Shown here: positions 33,799 to 43,228 of the stretch, in pieces
How positions within the stretch are numbered: position 1 is the stretch's first letter
Layout of the letters: each line of letters starts with the position of its first letter
Source: Bdellovibrio reynosensis
GTDB lineage: Bacteria > Bdellovibrionota > Bdellovibrionia > Bdellovibrionales > Bdellovibrionaceae
DNA length: 64,000 bases
Assembly: GCF_022814725.1 (NCBI RefSeq)
Contig: NZ_CP093442.1
Coordinates: forward strand, 2,852,001 to 2,916,000
Direction: 5' to 3'
Made by a program: the position numbers and the translations under genes
Notes under the pieces: generated by a model
The model's database searches: none
Told to the model about the DNA's origin: nothing
What the model saw: the letters and a program-made list of their open reading frames with translations, nothing else

Positions 33799-35538
33799 CT
33801 AAGGAACTCCAACTAGGGCCAGGCCTTCATCAATAAGGCCTTTGGTTTTTTCATCACGCTGTGAAAGGCGTGAAAGCTCGTTTTCAAGCTTGGCTTTTAA
33901 TGCAGAGTCTTTAGCACGTGCATGGATTAATTCCAAGGCTTCCAGATTTAACAGCCATTCTTCATGGAAAAATTCCTGGTGGTCGGCCATAACTTGCTCA
34001 ATGGCTTGGCTTAAGGCTGCGCCTTGTACGCCGCTTTCACGCACTTTGCGAAGATTCCCGAAGCTTTGGTGGCGTGAAAGTTCTTTGGCAGAGTATTGAG
34101 GGACTGGAACGCGTTTAGCGACGAAATCCGAGGTTTCTCCGTAAGCTTCACGGTCTGCAGCACCTCCGAATACGGAAGTCACTTTAGAGCCGATGGCCAT
34201 ATCGTAGATTCCCCATTCAGGCGCGAATAGAACACGATCGCCTAATTTTGCTGTGGCATTTTCTAAAGCAAGAAGGATCGTTTTACCATCAGTGACTCCA
34301 CGGCCTTTAACTTTTCCTTCAACCACGACACCTGAAACGAATTCAAGGCGGACGGTGTTACCTACTTGGACTTTTAGGTCTTGCCATTCTTGATCGCTGA
34401 ACGTAGATGGGCATTTGGACGGATTTGATTTTAAAAATCCAACTGGGGTTCCAAATCCATGGGCGTGATACGATTTATCGTGGCCCGATAGTTCCTTGTC
34501 TTTGTAATTAAGTTGGCTGGGGCCTTCAAAACGTAAGTAAGCAACTTCACCATTGGCAGTGATCGCTTCGGTGATAACTCCTGAAATTTGAATTCCGGAA
34601 TTCAGTTCAGCCGTGTTCACCGACTTAGCTTCGATGGCTTTATTTAAACCCTTTAAGCCGCCCACTTTGAACGCCATTTGTTCAGACATTTCATCTAAAA
34701 CTTTCGATAAAGTTTCAAAGTCAGGTGTCACAAATAACTGAGGTTGCGGTTCAGTGATATCGTAAGTGGTCTTAATGCAATCGACTGTCAAAGGAAGCTT
34801 TTTTACTTTTTGAGTTAAACACCACTTAGCTTCACCCACACTTGAAAGAAGACCCGCGCCGAAAATTTTTGGATTATCAAGTGTTCCGATCAATCCATAT
34901 TCAGCAGTCCACCAATTCATGCGCGAAAGTTCTGAAGCTTCTGAAACATGGGTGATACTTTTGCTTACTTCATCCAAAGTCTGTTCAGCAGCCCTAATCT
35001 GTTCTTGCGTAGAGGTTGGATTTTCTTTGATATCAGAAAGTTCACGAATTGCTTCGTAAAGATCCAAATCTTCCTTGCTGATGATGGCTTTCTTCGCCAC
35101 TTGCGCATAACGAGTTAAGTAAGCAGAAAATTCTGGATGAACTAAGATGGGCGCATGGCCTGCGGCTTCGTGAACGATGTCAGGCGCAGGAGTATAGAGC
35201 AAATGATCCAAAGTGCGCATATCAGATGCGATCGGTAGAACACCCAAAGCTTGAAGTTCCATAAACGCTGCTGGCGGAATGAATCCGCTGACAGGTAAAG
35301 CGCGCCAGCCGAATTTTTGCAGCTTTGCGCTGATGTCTTCAATGCGTGGAATGCGCTCAACGTTGATGCCGGTTTTTTCTAAACCTTCTGCATAACATTC
35401 ATGGGCGTGTTTTGATAAGAAGGCGCGAAGTTGTCTAAGGATGTAACGCCACACTGCTTGATCTACAGGAGTGTATTTTTCGTAGTGCTGTTCTACGACG
35501 TATTTTCTTAAGTGAGGCGGTAAAAAATCAGTCTCCAT
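33799..35538 (-). CDS. Aromatic amino acid (phenylalanine) hydroxylase, long form
   Basis: 579 residues, about twice the classical bacterial PAH. The N-terminal ~280 residues are the catalytic domain: VHEAAGHAPILVHPEF gives the two iron-binding His and WWTAEYGLIG the Glu. After that comes an extension of nearly 300 residues with beta-rich segments (NSGIQISGVITEAI, VRLEFVSGVVVEGKVKGRG) and a helical end; its function is unknown. Such long forms are, to my knowledge, found in some other bacteria. It makes tyrosine from phenylalanine using a pterin. Confidence 0.88.
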   Translation of the reverse strand: METDFLPPHLRKYVVEQHYEKYTPVDQAVWRYILRQLRAFLSKHAHECYAEGLEKTGINVERIPRIEDISAKLQKFGWRALPVSGFIPPAAFMELQALGVLPIASDMRTLDHLLYTPAPDIVHEAAGHAPILVHPEFSAYLTRYAQVAKKAIISKEDLDLYEAIRELSDIKENPTSTQEQIRAAEQTLDEVSKSITHVSEASELSRMNWWTAEYGLIGTLDNPKIFGAGLLSSVGEAKWCLTQKVKKLPLTVDCIKTTYDITEPQPQLFVTPDFETLSKVLDEMSEQMAFKVGGLKGLNKAIEAKSVNTAELNSGIQISGVITEAITANGEVAYLRFEGPSQLNYKDKELSGHDKSYHAHGFGTPVGFLKSNPSKCPSTFSDQEWQDLKVQVGNTVRLEFVSGVVVEGKVKGRGVTDGKTILLALENATAKLGDRVLFAPEWGIYDMAIGSKVTSVFGGAADREAYGETSDFVAKRVPVPQYSAKELSRHQSFGNLRKVRESGVQGAALSQAIEQVMADHQEFFHEEWLLNLEALELIHARAKDSALKAKLENELSRLSQRDEKTKGLIDEGLALVGVP

Positions 35539-39297: not shown

Positions 39298-41154
39298 TTA
39301 AATTGATTCGCTGTTTTCTTCTACCAAGCTTAGCAACTTCGCGAACAAATCCATTTTTACGGCTGGACGGCTTTGAAGCTCGCGATAGTAGCGACTTACT
39401 GGCACTTCTGGGTTGCCGTTTTGTTCAAAGACCAAGCGGTCGATGATTTTTTGGATTTGCTCCATGGATAAGCCCTTTTTCTTTTCAGAGATGATTTCTT
39501 CAACCATTTCAATCAGAGCGTTACCCGTGATGCGTTTGTCGGTATTTAATTTTTCAGAGCGTTCGCAAATGCCTTTAAGAATGCCTTCTGGTTTTTGTTT
39601 GCCCGCTGCAACGTTAACCAGTTCGCGATAGGTCTTTTGGAAGCTTTCAATGTGACGACGTTGTTTTTCGCCCATGCGTGCGTCTTTAGCTTTCGCAAAG
39701 CCAGAAAGGATTTTTTTAAAGAACGTATTTTCAAGCATCCAGCGTTTATCAAATGGCAGCGGACTTTCTGAAAGGAACTGTGGATATTCGCGCATGATCG
39801 TGCGCATGTTGTAAAGGGCTGCGTGGTTCACACCGTCAGCCACTCTTTCACTAGATCCACTGATTTTAGCGCGTTCAAAGTAAGAAAACTCTTTGTCGAA
39901 TTTTTCAAACAAACCTGGTTGCGCAAAGATATTATTTCTTTGAGTTTCGTTAAAGCCCATACGGTAAAGGATACGATTTGCTCTTTTCGCATCGAACAGT
40001 TCGTTAAACTTTTCTACTTGCGGATGGTTGGCAAACTCACGCAATGGCTTTTTCTTTTTAGTTTTTAGGTAATCCACCATTTGCACAAAAACCTGCACGA
40101 TCAATCGCGCCTTTTGTTTTTGTTCATTTAAGTTGGTAGAGAATCTTTCAATATCATCATAACGATATTTATCGTGGCGAATACCGAACTGACGTACACT
40201 GCCGTAGTCGATGATACCCGCATCTGCTAATACGTTGTCGCCGTCCCAATCAAGCCAAGCAAAGATATAATCAATATCAAGCTGGGCCGTAAACTCTGCA
40301 AAGGCTTTACATACGGCACTTAGCATCTCGTCGTATTTTGCCATGCCTCTGGCAGTGATGTTCCAAGCTTTGTTAGAGATCTGTCTTTCGATCAGATAAT
40401 CAGTCGCCGCTTTCAGGGTTTCGTATTTTTCTTGTTTTAAGTATAAGAACAAATGGGCAGGGCGGATTAGGTTTTGCGCAGCTCTAACACCGATGCCGTA
40501 GCCTTTTCCTAGGTCAATCACGCACAACATGCGTTCTGTTTTTAAACCTTGCAGATGCATGATCTCTGCTAAAATCGAAGCGCCAAATAGCTCATCGATT
40601 TCAGCAAGACCACAGCCATAACCGAATTCAGTGCCACCAGTCTTTAACGGCTTTTTTGCTTCAACTGCACCCGGAGCTAAACAGGTCACACCCGTTCCGC
40701 GACTGGAAACGTCCCATGTGATGCCACGGTGATAGACTGTTCCGTTCCAAATCCCGCGGCCGTCACCAGAAGTTTTACCTTGTTTGTTTGCGTGTTGAAG
40801 TTGCAAATAGCGAGTGGCCATGTAGCGGTGGGGGCGGACAGTTTCAGGATCAACTCTTCTTTGCACAAGTTCGTCGTATTCATTAATGATTTGCAAAGAG
40901 AAAGTTTCAATCAGTTTATTTTCTAGGTCTTCCGTCATCTGATTTGGATGATCCGGAGGAATCAGTCCCATTTCTTTCGCGAGAATGAAGTTGAAGTATG
41001 CGACTTTACCGGAACGCAATTCGCGCACTTTGTATGAAACATATCCGTCAGTGACTGCATCCATCCACGGATGAACTCCGTTGATTTGATCGAAAGATGA
41101 ATAAAAGTTTGTCGATTCTTTTAATTTGCGAGCGCCACTATGTTTCATCGTCAT
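39298..41154 (-). CDS. Divergent SelO-type pseudokinase (candidate AMPylase)
   Basis: 618 residues, longer than most bacterial SelO (about 500). The SelO pattern is recognisable: SRGTGVT (152-157) at the place of the lysine-bearing KGAGxTP loop, AEIMHLQGL with Glu197 matching the SelO SEAMHALGI helix, and GDNVLADAGIIDYGSV, in which Asp306-Asn307 and Asp316 keep the exact ten-residue spacing of SelO DN...DYGP. The ATP-contacting lysine appears to be Arg152, and ~22 residues are inserted before the helix. The C-terminal ~250 residues are helical and lineage-specific. If active it would transfer AMP to protein hydroxyls; that is inference. A near-consensus FliA promoter precedes it. Confidence 0.6.
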   Translation of the reverse strand: MTMKHSGARKLKESTNFYSSFDQINGVHPWMDAVTDGYVSYKVRELRSGKVAYFNFILAKEMGLIPPDHPNQMTEDLENKLIETFSLQIINEYDELVQRRVDPETVRPHRYMATRYLQLQHANKQGKTSGDGRGIWNGTVYHRGITWDVSSRGTGVTCLAPGAVEAKKPLKTGGTEFGYGCGLAEIDELFGASILAEIMHLQGLKTERMLCVIDLGKGYGIGVRAAQNLIRPAHLFLYLKQEKYETLKAATDYLIERQISNKAWNITARGMAKYDEMLSAVCKAFAEFTAQLDIDYIFAWLDWDGDNVLADAGIIDYGSVRQFGIRHDKYRYDDIERFSTNLNEQKQKARLIVQVFVQMVDYLKTKKKKPLREFANHPQVEKFNELFDAKRANRILYRMGFNETQRNNIFAQPGLFEKFDKEFSYFERAKISGSSERVADGVNHAALYNMRTIMREYPQFLSESPLPFDKRWMLENTFFKKILSGFAKAKDARMGEKQRRHIESFQKTYRELVNVAAGKQKPEGILKGICERSEKLNTDKRITGNALIEMVEEIISEKKKGLSMEQIQKIIDRLVFEQNGNPEVPVSRYYRELQSRPAVKMDLFAKLLSLVEENSESI

Positions 41155-42061: not shown

Positions 42062-43228
42062 TTAGCTAAAGATCACTGCGGCAAACCCGCCAAAAGGTGT
42101 GCGAAGGTTAGTAACCTGACCTTGATATAGTCTAGCAACAATTAGCTGCAAGCGCCCCTGATAAGCATAACAGCGCAGATCAAATTTAAAATCTTGAGGC
42201 CCGTTCGGCGTTTCAAAATTCTTTTCCGGCGCTGGAATGTATTCCTGTGCGATGATGTCTTGATCGATGAGTTCTTTAAATACTTTATTACTTACCGAAG
42301 CACCCTTATAAGACTGTTTTGAACCAAAGGCGTTCTTTGGTTTAAAGAACAATGTCTTACGTTGAGCCCAAAGTTCTTCAGCGTTTTCAGAGCGTAGATC
42401 AAATGATTTGGGTAAAGCCGTGCGGAGCAATTTTAGTTCGTTATTAGAAAATCCATGGGATTCTAAAAATCCCGGTTGAGCCCAATCGATAAGACGTTGC
42501 TTATCCGCCAAAAGAAAATATTCGTAAGGGTTGGGCGACAGACAGACTTTTTTCGATAGATAACTTTCTTTAAGCTCAGTGCTGCTAGCATCATTCAAAA
42601 AGAAATCTGTATAGCGGTTGTAGATGAAGTCAGGTTTAAAATCTTTAAAAGTGTCGCGGTAATCCAGAATGCGCGAATCCCAACCCCAGGATTTGAAAAG
42701 TTCATTATAGACCAAGAATTCAACAAACAATCTTTGTTCCGAAGGTTTTTCATCAATGATTGCTAAGGGCAAGTTCGCGGCGACATTTTTACCTTGAAGC
42801 TTCAGTTCTGTTTCGATGCATGAGCGAATTTCATCCATTGTGAAATCTGCAACCGGCTGAGGAAGCCCTTTCATCTTATACATCTCTGAACCCAGTGCCA
42901 GGAATGCGGCATTGGTATTGATTTCGATCAATTTGAGGTTTTCATTTTCGTCTAAATGAAAATCGTAACTCATCATGATTGATTTGTTGCCAGGATCGGT
43001 AAGACCTTTTTCTTGAAGCAGGTTTTTATAATGATCGCGGTAACTTTGTTTTTCACGCATTGAAAATAACAATGAAACAACGTCTTGGGCTTGCTTAAGA
43101 ACGGGTGAAGGAAGTTGAACCGAAAAAGGGGAAATCAGATTTTCAGCAACAATTGTTTCAAGGGGCTCGTTCTTAAGCCCCGGGAAAGATGTTCTTAGTT
43201 GCTGAATAAAATCTGATTTCAATTCCAT
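42062..43228 (-). CDS. ATP-grasp-like enzyme, glutathionylspermidine-synthase/RimK-type
   Basis: 388 residues. An N-terminal segment with MMSYDFHLDENENLKLIEIN contains EINTNAA, where ATP-grasp enzymes have the metal-binding E-x-N; later come TLFFKPKNAFGSKQSYKG (ATP-binding Lys and Gly-rich loop), AQEYIPAPEK and FDLRCYAYQGRLQLIVARLYQGQ. The order with E-x-N early suggests a permuted ATP-grasp. The gene follows the peroxiredoxin stop by 2 nt, which points to a thiol or redox-linked ligase, but the substrate is unknown. Confidence 0.6.
   Translation of the reverse strand: MELKSDFIQQLRTSFPGLKNEPLETIVAENLISPFSVQLPSPVLKQAQDVVSLLFSMREKQSYRDHYKNLLQEKGLTDPGNKSIMMSYDFHLDENENLKLIEINTNAAFLALGSEMYKMKGLPQPVADFTMDEIRSCIETELKLQGKNVAANLPLAIIDEKPSEQRLFVEFLVYNELFKSWGWDSRILDYRDTFKDFKPDFIYNRYTDFFLNDASSTELKESYLSKKVCLSPNPYEYFLLADKQRLIDWAQPGFLESHGFSNNELKLLRTALPKSFDLRSENAEELWAQRKTLFFKPKNAFGSKQSYKGASVSNKVFKELIDQDIIAQEYIPAPEKNFETPNGPQDFKFDLRCYAYQGRLQLIVARLYQGQVTNLRTPFGGFAAVIFS

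Follow-up and report, generated by a model that had tools for sequence, protein, structure and literature searches.

A SelO-like protein family of Bdellovibrionota without the Lys-Glu ion pair of SelO, coupled to an S51 peptidase-like gene in one clade

Here we describe a SelO-like protein encoded in the window, which is the whole stretch of 64,000 nucleotides that was analysed. The protein belongs to a family distinct from the ordinary SelO of the same genome. Judged from alignments, the entire family is without the Lys-Glu ion pair of SelO while the rest of the active site is frozen, and in a sister clade, where the lysine position is not occupied by Arg as it is in the window protein, the gene is coupled to a gene for an S51 peptidase-like protein. 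SelO transfers AMP to Ser, Thr or Tyr residues of proteins, and the SelO-like protein is probably also an active nucleotidyltransferase, with a pocket for the distal phosphates that appears to have been rebuilt.

The SelO-like gene

The window derives from a Bdellovibrio-type genome (G000) that consists of a single contig of 3,582,323 bases. An earlier note, made from the sequence alone, had claimed an open reading frame at positions 39298-41154, and this was borne out, the frame lying on the minus strand and coding for 618 amino acids from an ATG start.

39298..41154, minus strand: SelO-like protein, 618 aa (ATG start, stop codon at 39298-39300; assigned by hhalign to canonical SelO, AlphaFold model and fold match)

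When we compared the gene with its orthologue in genome G006, pN was about 0.11 and pS was about 0.72, a pS value near saturation. Because of this difference, we regard the open reading frame as a genuine gene under strong purifying selection.

Profile and structural relationship to SelO

In searches with the single sequence, the window protein is not listed by the Pfam SelO profile (PF02696) at E<=1, and phmmer against the PDB gave chance matches only. The NCBIfam profile YdiU (NF000658) matches the protein at E=2.4e-7, scoring 30 bits where the cut-off is 431, and by these curated scores the protein falls outside the SelO family. A profile search against SelO/UPF0061 and a comparison of a predicted structure with SelO had been proposed in the earlier note; the former thus recovers SelO, weakly for this single sequence, and the latter returns the SelO fold, as described below. 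At the level of the family the signal is stronger. PF02696 is matched by 10 of the 36 SelO-like family members, the best at 2.3e-9, and several relatives exceed the PF02696 cut-off in the genome search. The family profile retrieved YdiU/SelO from the PDB at E=0.0026, and when it was compared by hhalign with a canonical SelO profile built from 17 proteins, the probability was 98.5% and the E-value 1.7e-15 over 411 aligned columns.

The AlphaFold model of the window protein has a pLDDT of 91.4 and a pTM of 0.90. When the model was searched with Foldseek, all nine matches at E<0.001 were SelO/YdiU entries. VIA-align superposed the model on SelO/YdiU with a Z of 26.8 and an rmsd of 3.3 for 438 aligned residues, extending from residue 19 to 615, whereas the top match outside SelO reached a Z of only 8.6. 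The model therefore has the protein kinase-like fold of SelO, and the sequence identity to SelO/YdiU is 14-16%. In view of the profile-profile match and the Foldseek and VIA-align fold matches, the SelO-like family is related to SelO along its whole length.

A family distinct from canonical SelO

The same genome encodes a canonical SelO at another locus (C1:1227888-1229204; PF02696, E=3.1e-106), and this SelO of the genome's own (L063) has 478 amino acids. Since the genome also has this ordinary SelO, the SelO-like protein represents a separate family. In the phylogenetic tree, a long and well supported branch divides the SelO-like family from canonical SelO; L062 and L066 were entered in the tree but are very long-branched, and their placement was not used. 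The divergent SelO-related clade that the earlier note had proposed is thus supported by the profile-profile comparison, the structure, the long-branch tree and the coexisting canonical SelO. The L062 protein, a SelO-like protein of 601 amino acids from genome G015 (L062:133-1938, minus strand) with a weak PF02696 match (E=4.3e-6) and a very long branch, is perhaps a third type.

The SelO-like family is present in 78 of 100 relatives, and a PF02696 match was found in 85 of the 100. In the phylum Bdellovibrionota the family profile was matched in 210 of 340 genomes at E<=0.001, among which a few weak matches may be canonical SelO. Two draws of 60 genomes each from the phyla to which G350 and G351 belong (Fibrobacteres, Pyrinomonadaceae), neither of which included any Bdellovibrionota genome, contained the family in 2 and 3 genomes, respectively. 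Most Bdellovibrionota therefore have the family, and it turns up sporadically in two further phyla. The gene is absent from every sampled member of genus g3, most of them nearly complete genomes (G025, G044, G049, G052, G054, G056, G058, G059, G060, G294 and G322), which is a lineage-wide loss. In our literature search, the papers naming both SelO and Bdellovibrio did not mention SelO in Bdellovibrio, and a comparative genomics paper on Bdellovibrionota did not mention SelO.

Active-site residues

In SelO, Lys113 coordinates the gamma-phosphate and Glu136 stabilises that contact, Arg176 and Arg183 also stabilise the gamma-phosphate, and Asn253 and Asp262 bind metal (PMC8097203); according to PMC3281104, the Lys is "almost invariant" in the family and the Glu "invariant". 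We mapped these residues onto the window protein with four MAFFT modes and hhalign, which gave an identical result. Numbered by the genome's own SelO, which runs one higher than that of P. syringae, the correspondences are R94 to R133, K114 to R152, D126 to C181, E137 to A192, E142 to E197, R177 to R224, R184 to R231, D253 to D306, N254 to N307 and D263 to D316. The ungapped HMMER alignment of the helix-C region with E. coli YdiU has the same register as MAFFT and hhalign. The codons concerned are the following, all on the minus strand, the codon of residue n lying at 41154 - 3 x (n - 1) and counting downward.

40756..40758, minus strand: R133, the Arg of the SelO GDGR motif, invariant (alignments)
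40699..40701, minus strand: R152, at the position of the ATP-contacting Lys of SelO (alignments, hhalign)
40579..40581, minus strand: A192, at the position of the invariant helix-C Glu of SelO (alignments, HMMER, hhalign)
40483..40485, minus strand: R224 (SelO Arg176), invariant (alignments)
40462..40464, minus strand: R231 (SelO Arg183), invariant (alignments)
40234..40239, minus strand: D306-N307 (SelO Asp252/Asn253), invariant (alignments)
40207..40209, minus strand: D316 (DFG Asp262 of SelO), invariant (alignments)

In 121 distinct SelO-like sequences, R133, R224, R231, D306, N307 and D316 are conserved without exception, so that both the Asp252-Asn253-x8-Asp262 arrangement and the phosphate-contacting Arg176 and Arg183 of SelO have their counterparts in 121 of 121; D131, D304, H234, S319, R321, D334, R337 and Q345 are likewise invariant. 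On the contrary, the ATP-contacting Lys is found in none of the 121, position 152 being Arg in 91, Cys in 26 and Gly, Ala, Ser or Val in one each. The helix-C Glu that pairs with this Lys is also missing across the family, and position 192 is Ala, Ser, Thr or Cys save for one Asp and one Gly. Since Lys and Glu are lacking at positions 152 and 192 while the other site residues are invariant, the ion pair appears to have been lost family-wide. One turn before A192, position 188 is Glu in 116 sequences and Asp in 5, and E188 might stand in for the lost helix-C Glu. The C-terminal Cys/Sec tail, which is common but not universal in SelO, is absent, the C-termini reading ESI, EDI or ETI. At position 181, 117 of the 121 members have Cys where canonical SelO has an invariant Asp, and a catalytic or redox role for C181 is possible.

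These alignments agree in part with the earlier note. The exact DN-(8)-D spacing it had claimed is confirmed, D306, N307 and D316 aligning with D253, N254 and D263 of the genome's own SelO, and the lysine loop, which reads SSRGTGVT, places R152 at the SelO Lys in all four MAFFT modes and in hhalign. Replacement of Lys by Arg, which the note had reported, holds for the window protein but is lineage-specific, since Cys, Ala, Ser, Val or Gly takes this place in a sister clade. Its statement that the helix Glu is kept proved incorrect for the SelO position: A192 occupies the place of the invariant SelO Glu (E137 in the own SelO, E136 in that of P. syringae), and E197 corresponds to another Glu of SelO (E142 of the own SelO). 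As for size, the insertion it had put at about 22 residues is present, with a net size of about 17 (the spacing from Lys to Glu is 23 in SelO compared with 40 in the window protein). The C-terminal extension of about 250 residues turned out to be mostly the C-lobe of SelO itself; the SelO match reaches residue 617, and 302 residues lie beyond the DFG Asp of the window protein compared with 215 beyond that of the own SelO, a net excess of about 87.

An S51 peptidase-like partner in the non-Arg sister clade

In the sister clade without Arg at position 152, a gene for an S51 peptidase-like protein of 221 amino acids lies immediately downstream on the same strand. Before thinning, it was found at 28 of the 35 non-Arg loci whose neighbour could be read and overlapped the SelO-like gene by 4 bases in 22 of these 28; after thinning at 90% identity (31 loci in all), it was found at 24 of 29 readable loci, and the second commonest neighbour at 7 of 31. 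None of 65 Arg-type loci has an S51 gene immediately downstream of the SelO-like gene. The S51-linked SelO-like proteins are 44-78% identical among themselves. Because the pair is retained at such divergence amid changing surroundings, these results indicate that the SelO-like protein and the S51 protein form a functional unit.

The partner is a member of Pfam Peptidase_S51 (113.8 bits against a cut-off of 23.9), and its Ser121 (in GLSAGA) and His164 are invariant. Its best relatives of solved structure are Lmo0363, alpha-aspartyl dipeptidase and PepE, but its scores are below the equivalog cut-offs of both PepE (46 against 156 bits) and cyanophycinase (30 against 127 bits). S51 enzymes cut Asp-X dipeptides and cyanophycin, and MccG cuts an aspartate-nucleotide amide (PMC9239234). 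PADLOC matched neither the SelO-like protein nor the S51 partner to defence systems.

When the states were placed on the tree, the non-Arg state could be explained by a single change and the S51 link by two, so the association between residue 152 and S51 is essentially one event and not repeated co-evolution. Two genomes, G061 (L226) and G074 (L227), have a non-Arg gene with S51 that is nested in the non-Arg clade, although their order code is that of the window, and G069, with the same family code, has an Arg-type gene. This pattern is compatible with joint horizontal transfer; it could alternatively be explained by deep taxonomic codes or MAG errors. Relocation of an S51 partner to another place in the window's own genome was considered and rejected, since the search there gave just a weak match (E=6.6e-4). 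As the window clade (Arg152) is without the S51 partner, the partner argument applies to the window protein by homology only.

Other neighbouring genes

Upstream of the SelO-like gene the window contains an ATP-grasp-like gene.

42062..43228, minus strand: ATP-grasp/TTL-like protein, 388 aa (Pfam TTL, E=2.8e-4)

This protein has no PDB or NCBIfam match. In 26 of 80 related loci its gene immediately precedes the SelO-like gene in the same orientation, with gaps of -35 to 252 bases, and in the window a gene on the opposite strand separates the two. The Arg-type loci share a syntenic block of xthA-like, peroxiredoxin-like, ATP-grasp-like, SelO-like and RfaD-like genes (the xthA-like, peroxiredoxin-like and RfaD-like names were assigned by reading the sequences). 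Because of this wider block and the broken adjacency in the window, the ATP-grasp-like gene was set aside as a partner. No HlyC-like gene surfaced among the annotated neighbours, the window neighbours being scanned singly and the clusters compared. At 33799-35538 (minus strand), the window also encodes a protein of 579 amino acids whose biopterin-dependent aromatic amino acid hydroxylase domain is split into two stretches.

Proposed mechanism and alternatives

We suggest that the SelO-like protein is probably an active metal-dependent nucleotidyltransferase with the layout of SelO and a rebuilt distal-phosphate pocket. A nucleotide, ATP or another, would be bound in the flipped orientation of SelO, Asp306, Asn307 and Asp316 together with Mg or Mn would activate both acceptor and alpha-phosphate, and NMP would be transferred to the acceptor. 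The leaving group would be held by the three invariant Arg alone, whose counterparts line the phosphate site in SelO, or might not be pyrophosphate at all (e.g. NMN from NAD+); such altered handling is suggested because Lys113 and Glu136 of SelO serve the gamma-phosphate and both are lost. With both of these residues gone, a changed donor or donor geometry also appears more likely than could be recognised in the earlier note, and a different nucleotide or target for this clade is plausible. The conserved metal residues could also be used for a kinase, ligase or hydrolase reaction.

In the non-Arg clade, the acceptor or product may be a peptide or amino acid that contains an aspartyl or isoaspartyl group, and the S51 enzyme would process or reverse the modification. 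This suggestion draws on one neighbour family, and it is made because S51 enzymes cut aspartyl and isoaspartyl amide bonds, including those of aspartyl-nucleotides. The fuller picture, in which a SelO superfamily enzyme without the Lys-Glu pair and with a changed donor or leaving group forms, in one clade, a two-gene writer/processor unit with an S51 aspartyl hydrolase, the unit modifying an aspartyl-containing peptide or protein by a new nucleotide- or acyl-based chemistry, is put forward as a tentative possibility.

Several other functions need to be considered. The retained positive charge of Arg, and a fold and remaining active-site residues that agree with SelO, would suit a protein AMPylase of the ordinary SelO type, with Arg as a conservative substitute for Lys and with the same donor and chemistry applied to other targets. 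We consider this unlikely, since position 152 drifts to Cys, Ala, Ser, Val or Gly in the sister clade, the partner Glu is lost throughout the family, a canonical SelO is retained in the same genome, the tree separation is deep, and the score lies far below the NCBIfam cut-off. It is likewise rather improbable that the protein is an acyl-activating enzyme that adenylates a carboxylate (an Asp/Glu side chain or a C-terminus) for transfer to an amine or hydroxyl, the S51 enzyme cutting the resulting amide. Acyl activation has been proposed for the pseudokinase glutamylase SidJ (PMC6858067) and likewise for MchC/MceJ, a microcin maturation protein related to SelO (PMC3281104). The specificity of the S51 family for aspartyl amide bonds (PMC9239234) speaks for such a role, as do the part that MchC, a distant SelO subfamily, plays in a covalent linkage to the C-terminus of a peptide (PMC3281104) and the frequent ATP-grasp-like gene near Arg-type genes, but that neighbour may reflect plain synteny and the likeness to MchC is by description.

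If the donor were NAD+ or another dinucleotide (NAD+ to NMN and AMP), there would be no gamma-phosphate to hold, and the loss of both Lys113 and Glu136, which serve it in SelO (PMC8097203), would be understandable. NADase activity has recently been reported for human SelO and YdiU (PMC13391479), and YdiU-NAD structures are among the top Foldseek matches. The reported NADase activity, however, requires the C-terminal Cys tail, whereas the SelO-like C-termini end in ESI or EDI, and R224 and R231, which are likewise gamma-phosphate contacts, are retained, making a dinucleotide donor quite unlikely. Finally, the absence of the Lys-Glu pair is usually a sign of a pseudokinase (PMC12599244), but the other metal and phosphate residues are fully conserved in 121 sequences from at least three phyla, which a scaffold would not need; we therefore regard a non-catalytic pseudoenzyme or scaffold as very unlikely and prefer an active nucleotidyltransferase.

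Comparison with known systems

A catalytic site that is frozen and yet without the Lys-Glu pair would show that SelO-type chemistry can be re-engineered. The coupled S51 hydrolase renders the target testable and provides a first handle on the job of the SelO-like protein, and a likely function class is assigned to a hypothetical protein from the core genome of predatory bacteria, one that goes unnoticed in standard annotation.

The closest known system is SelO/YdiU (PF02696, NF000658; PDB 6EAC, 6K20, 6LNA), with which the SelO-like protein has the whole-length fold in common. The DN-8-D triad, the Arg of GDGR, Arg176 and Arg183, the D[Y]G motif and the equivalents of Glu142 and Thr151 are kept. 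Unlike SelO/YdiU, the SelO-like protein is without the ATP Lys, the helix-C Glu and the C-terminal Cys; HGVMNTDN of SelO becomes FAWLDWDGDN, D126 becomes Cys181, the stretch between beta3 and helix C is longer by a net 17 residues, and about 87 extra residues are found at the C-terminus. The MchC/MceJ microcin maturation proteins (PMC3281104) are likewise a distant relative of SelO with a partner gene of their own; compared by description, their partner is an HlyC-like acyltransferase in microcin clusters, whereas that of the SelO-like protein is an S51 hydrolase in the core genome. Kinases and pseudokinases without the Lys (WNK; ActPs2 and DYD, PMC12599244) also have the beta3 Lys replaced by Arg or Cys, and nucleotide binding may persist in them, but their orientation is that of classical kinases and not the SelO type, so that the kinship is one of fold only.

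The sister-clade partner, in turn, has the Ser and His residues and the fold family of the S51 enzymes PepE, cyanophycinase and MccG, but differs from PepE and cyanophycinase in lying well below their equivalog cut-offs and in being coupled to a SelO-like gene. Among the papers listed in our literature search, none connects SelO with S51 peptidases, and the coupling of an S51 gene to the SelO-like gene in the non-Arg sister clade is what is new here.
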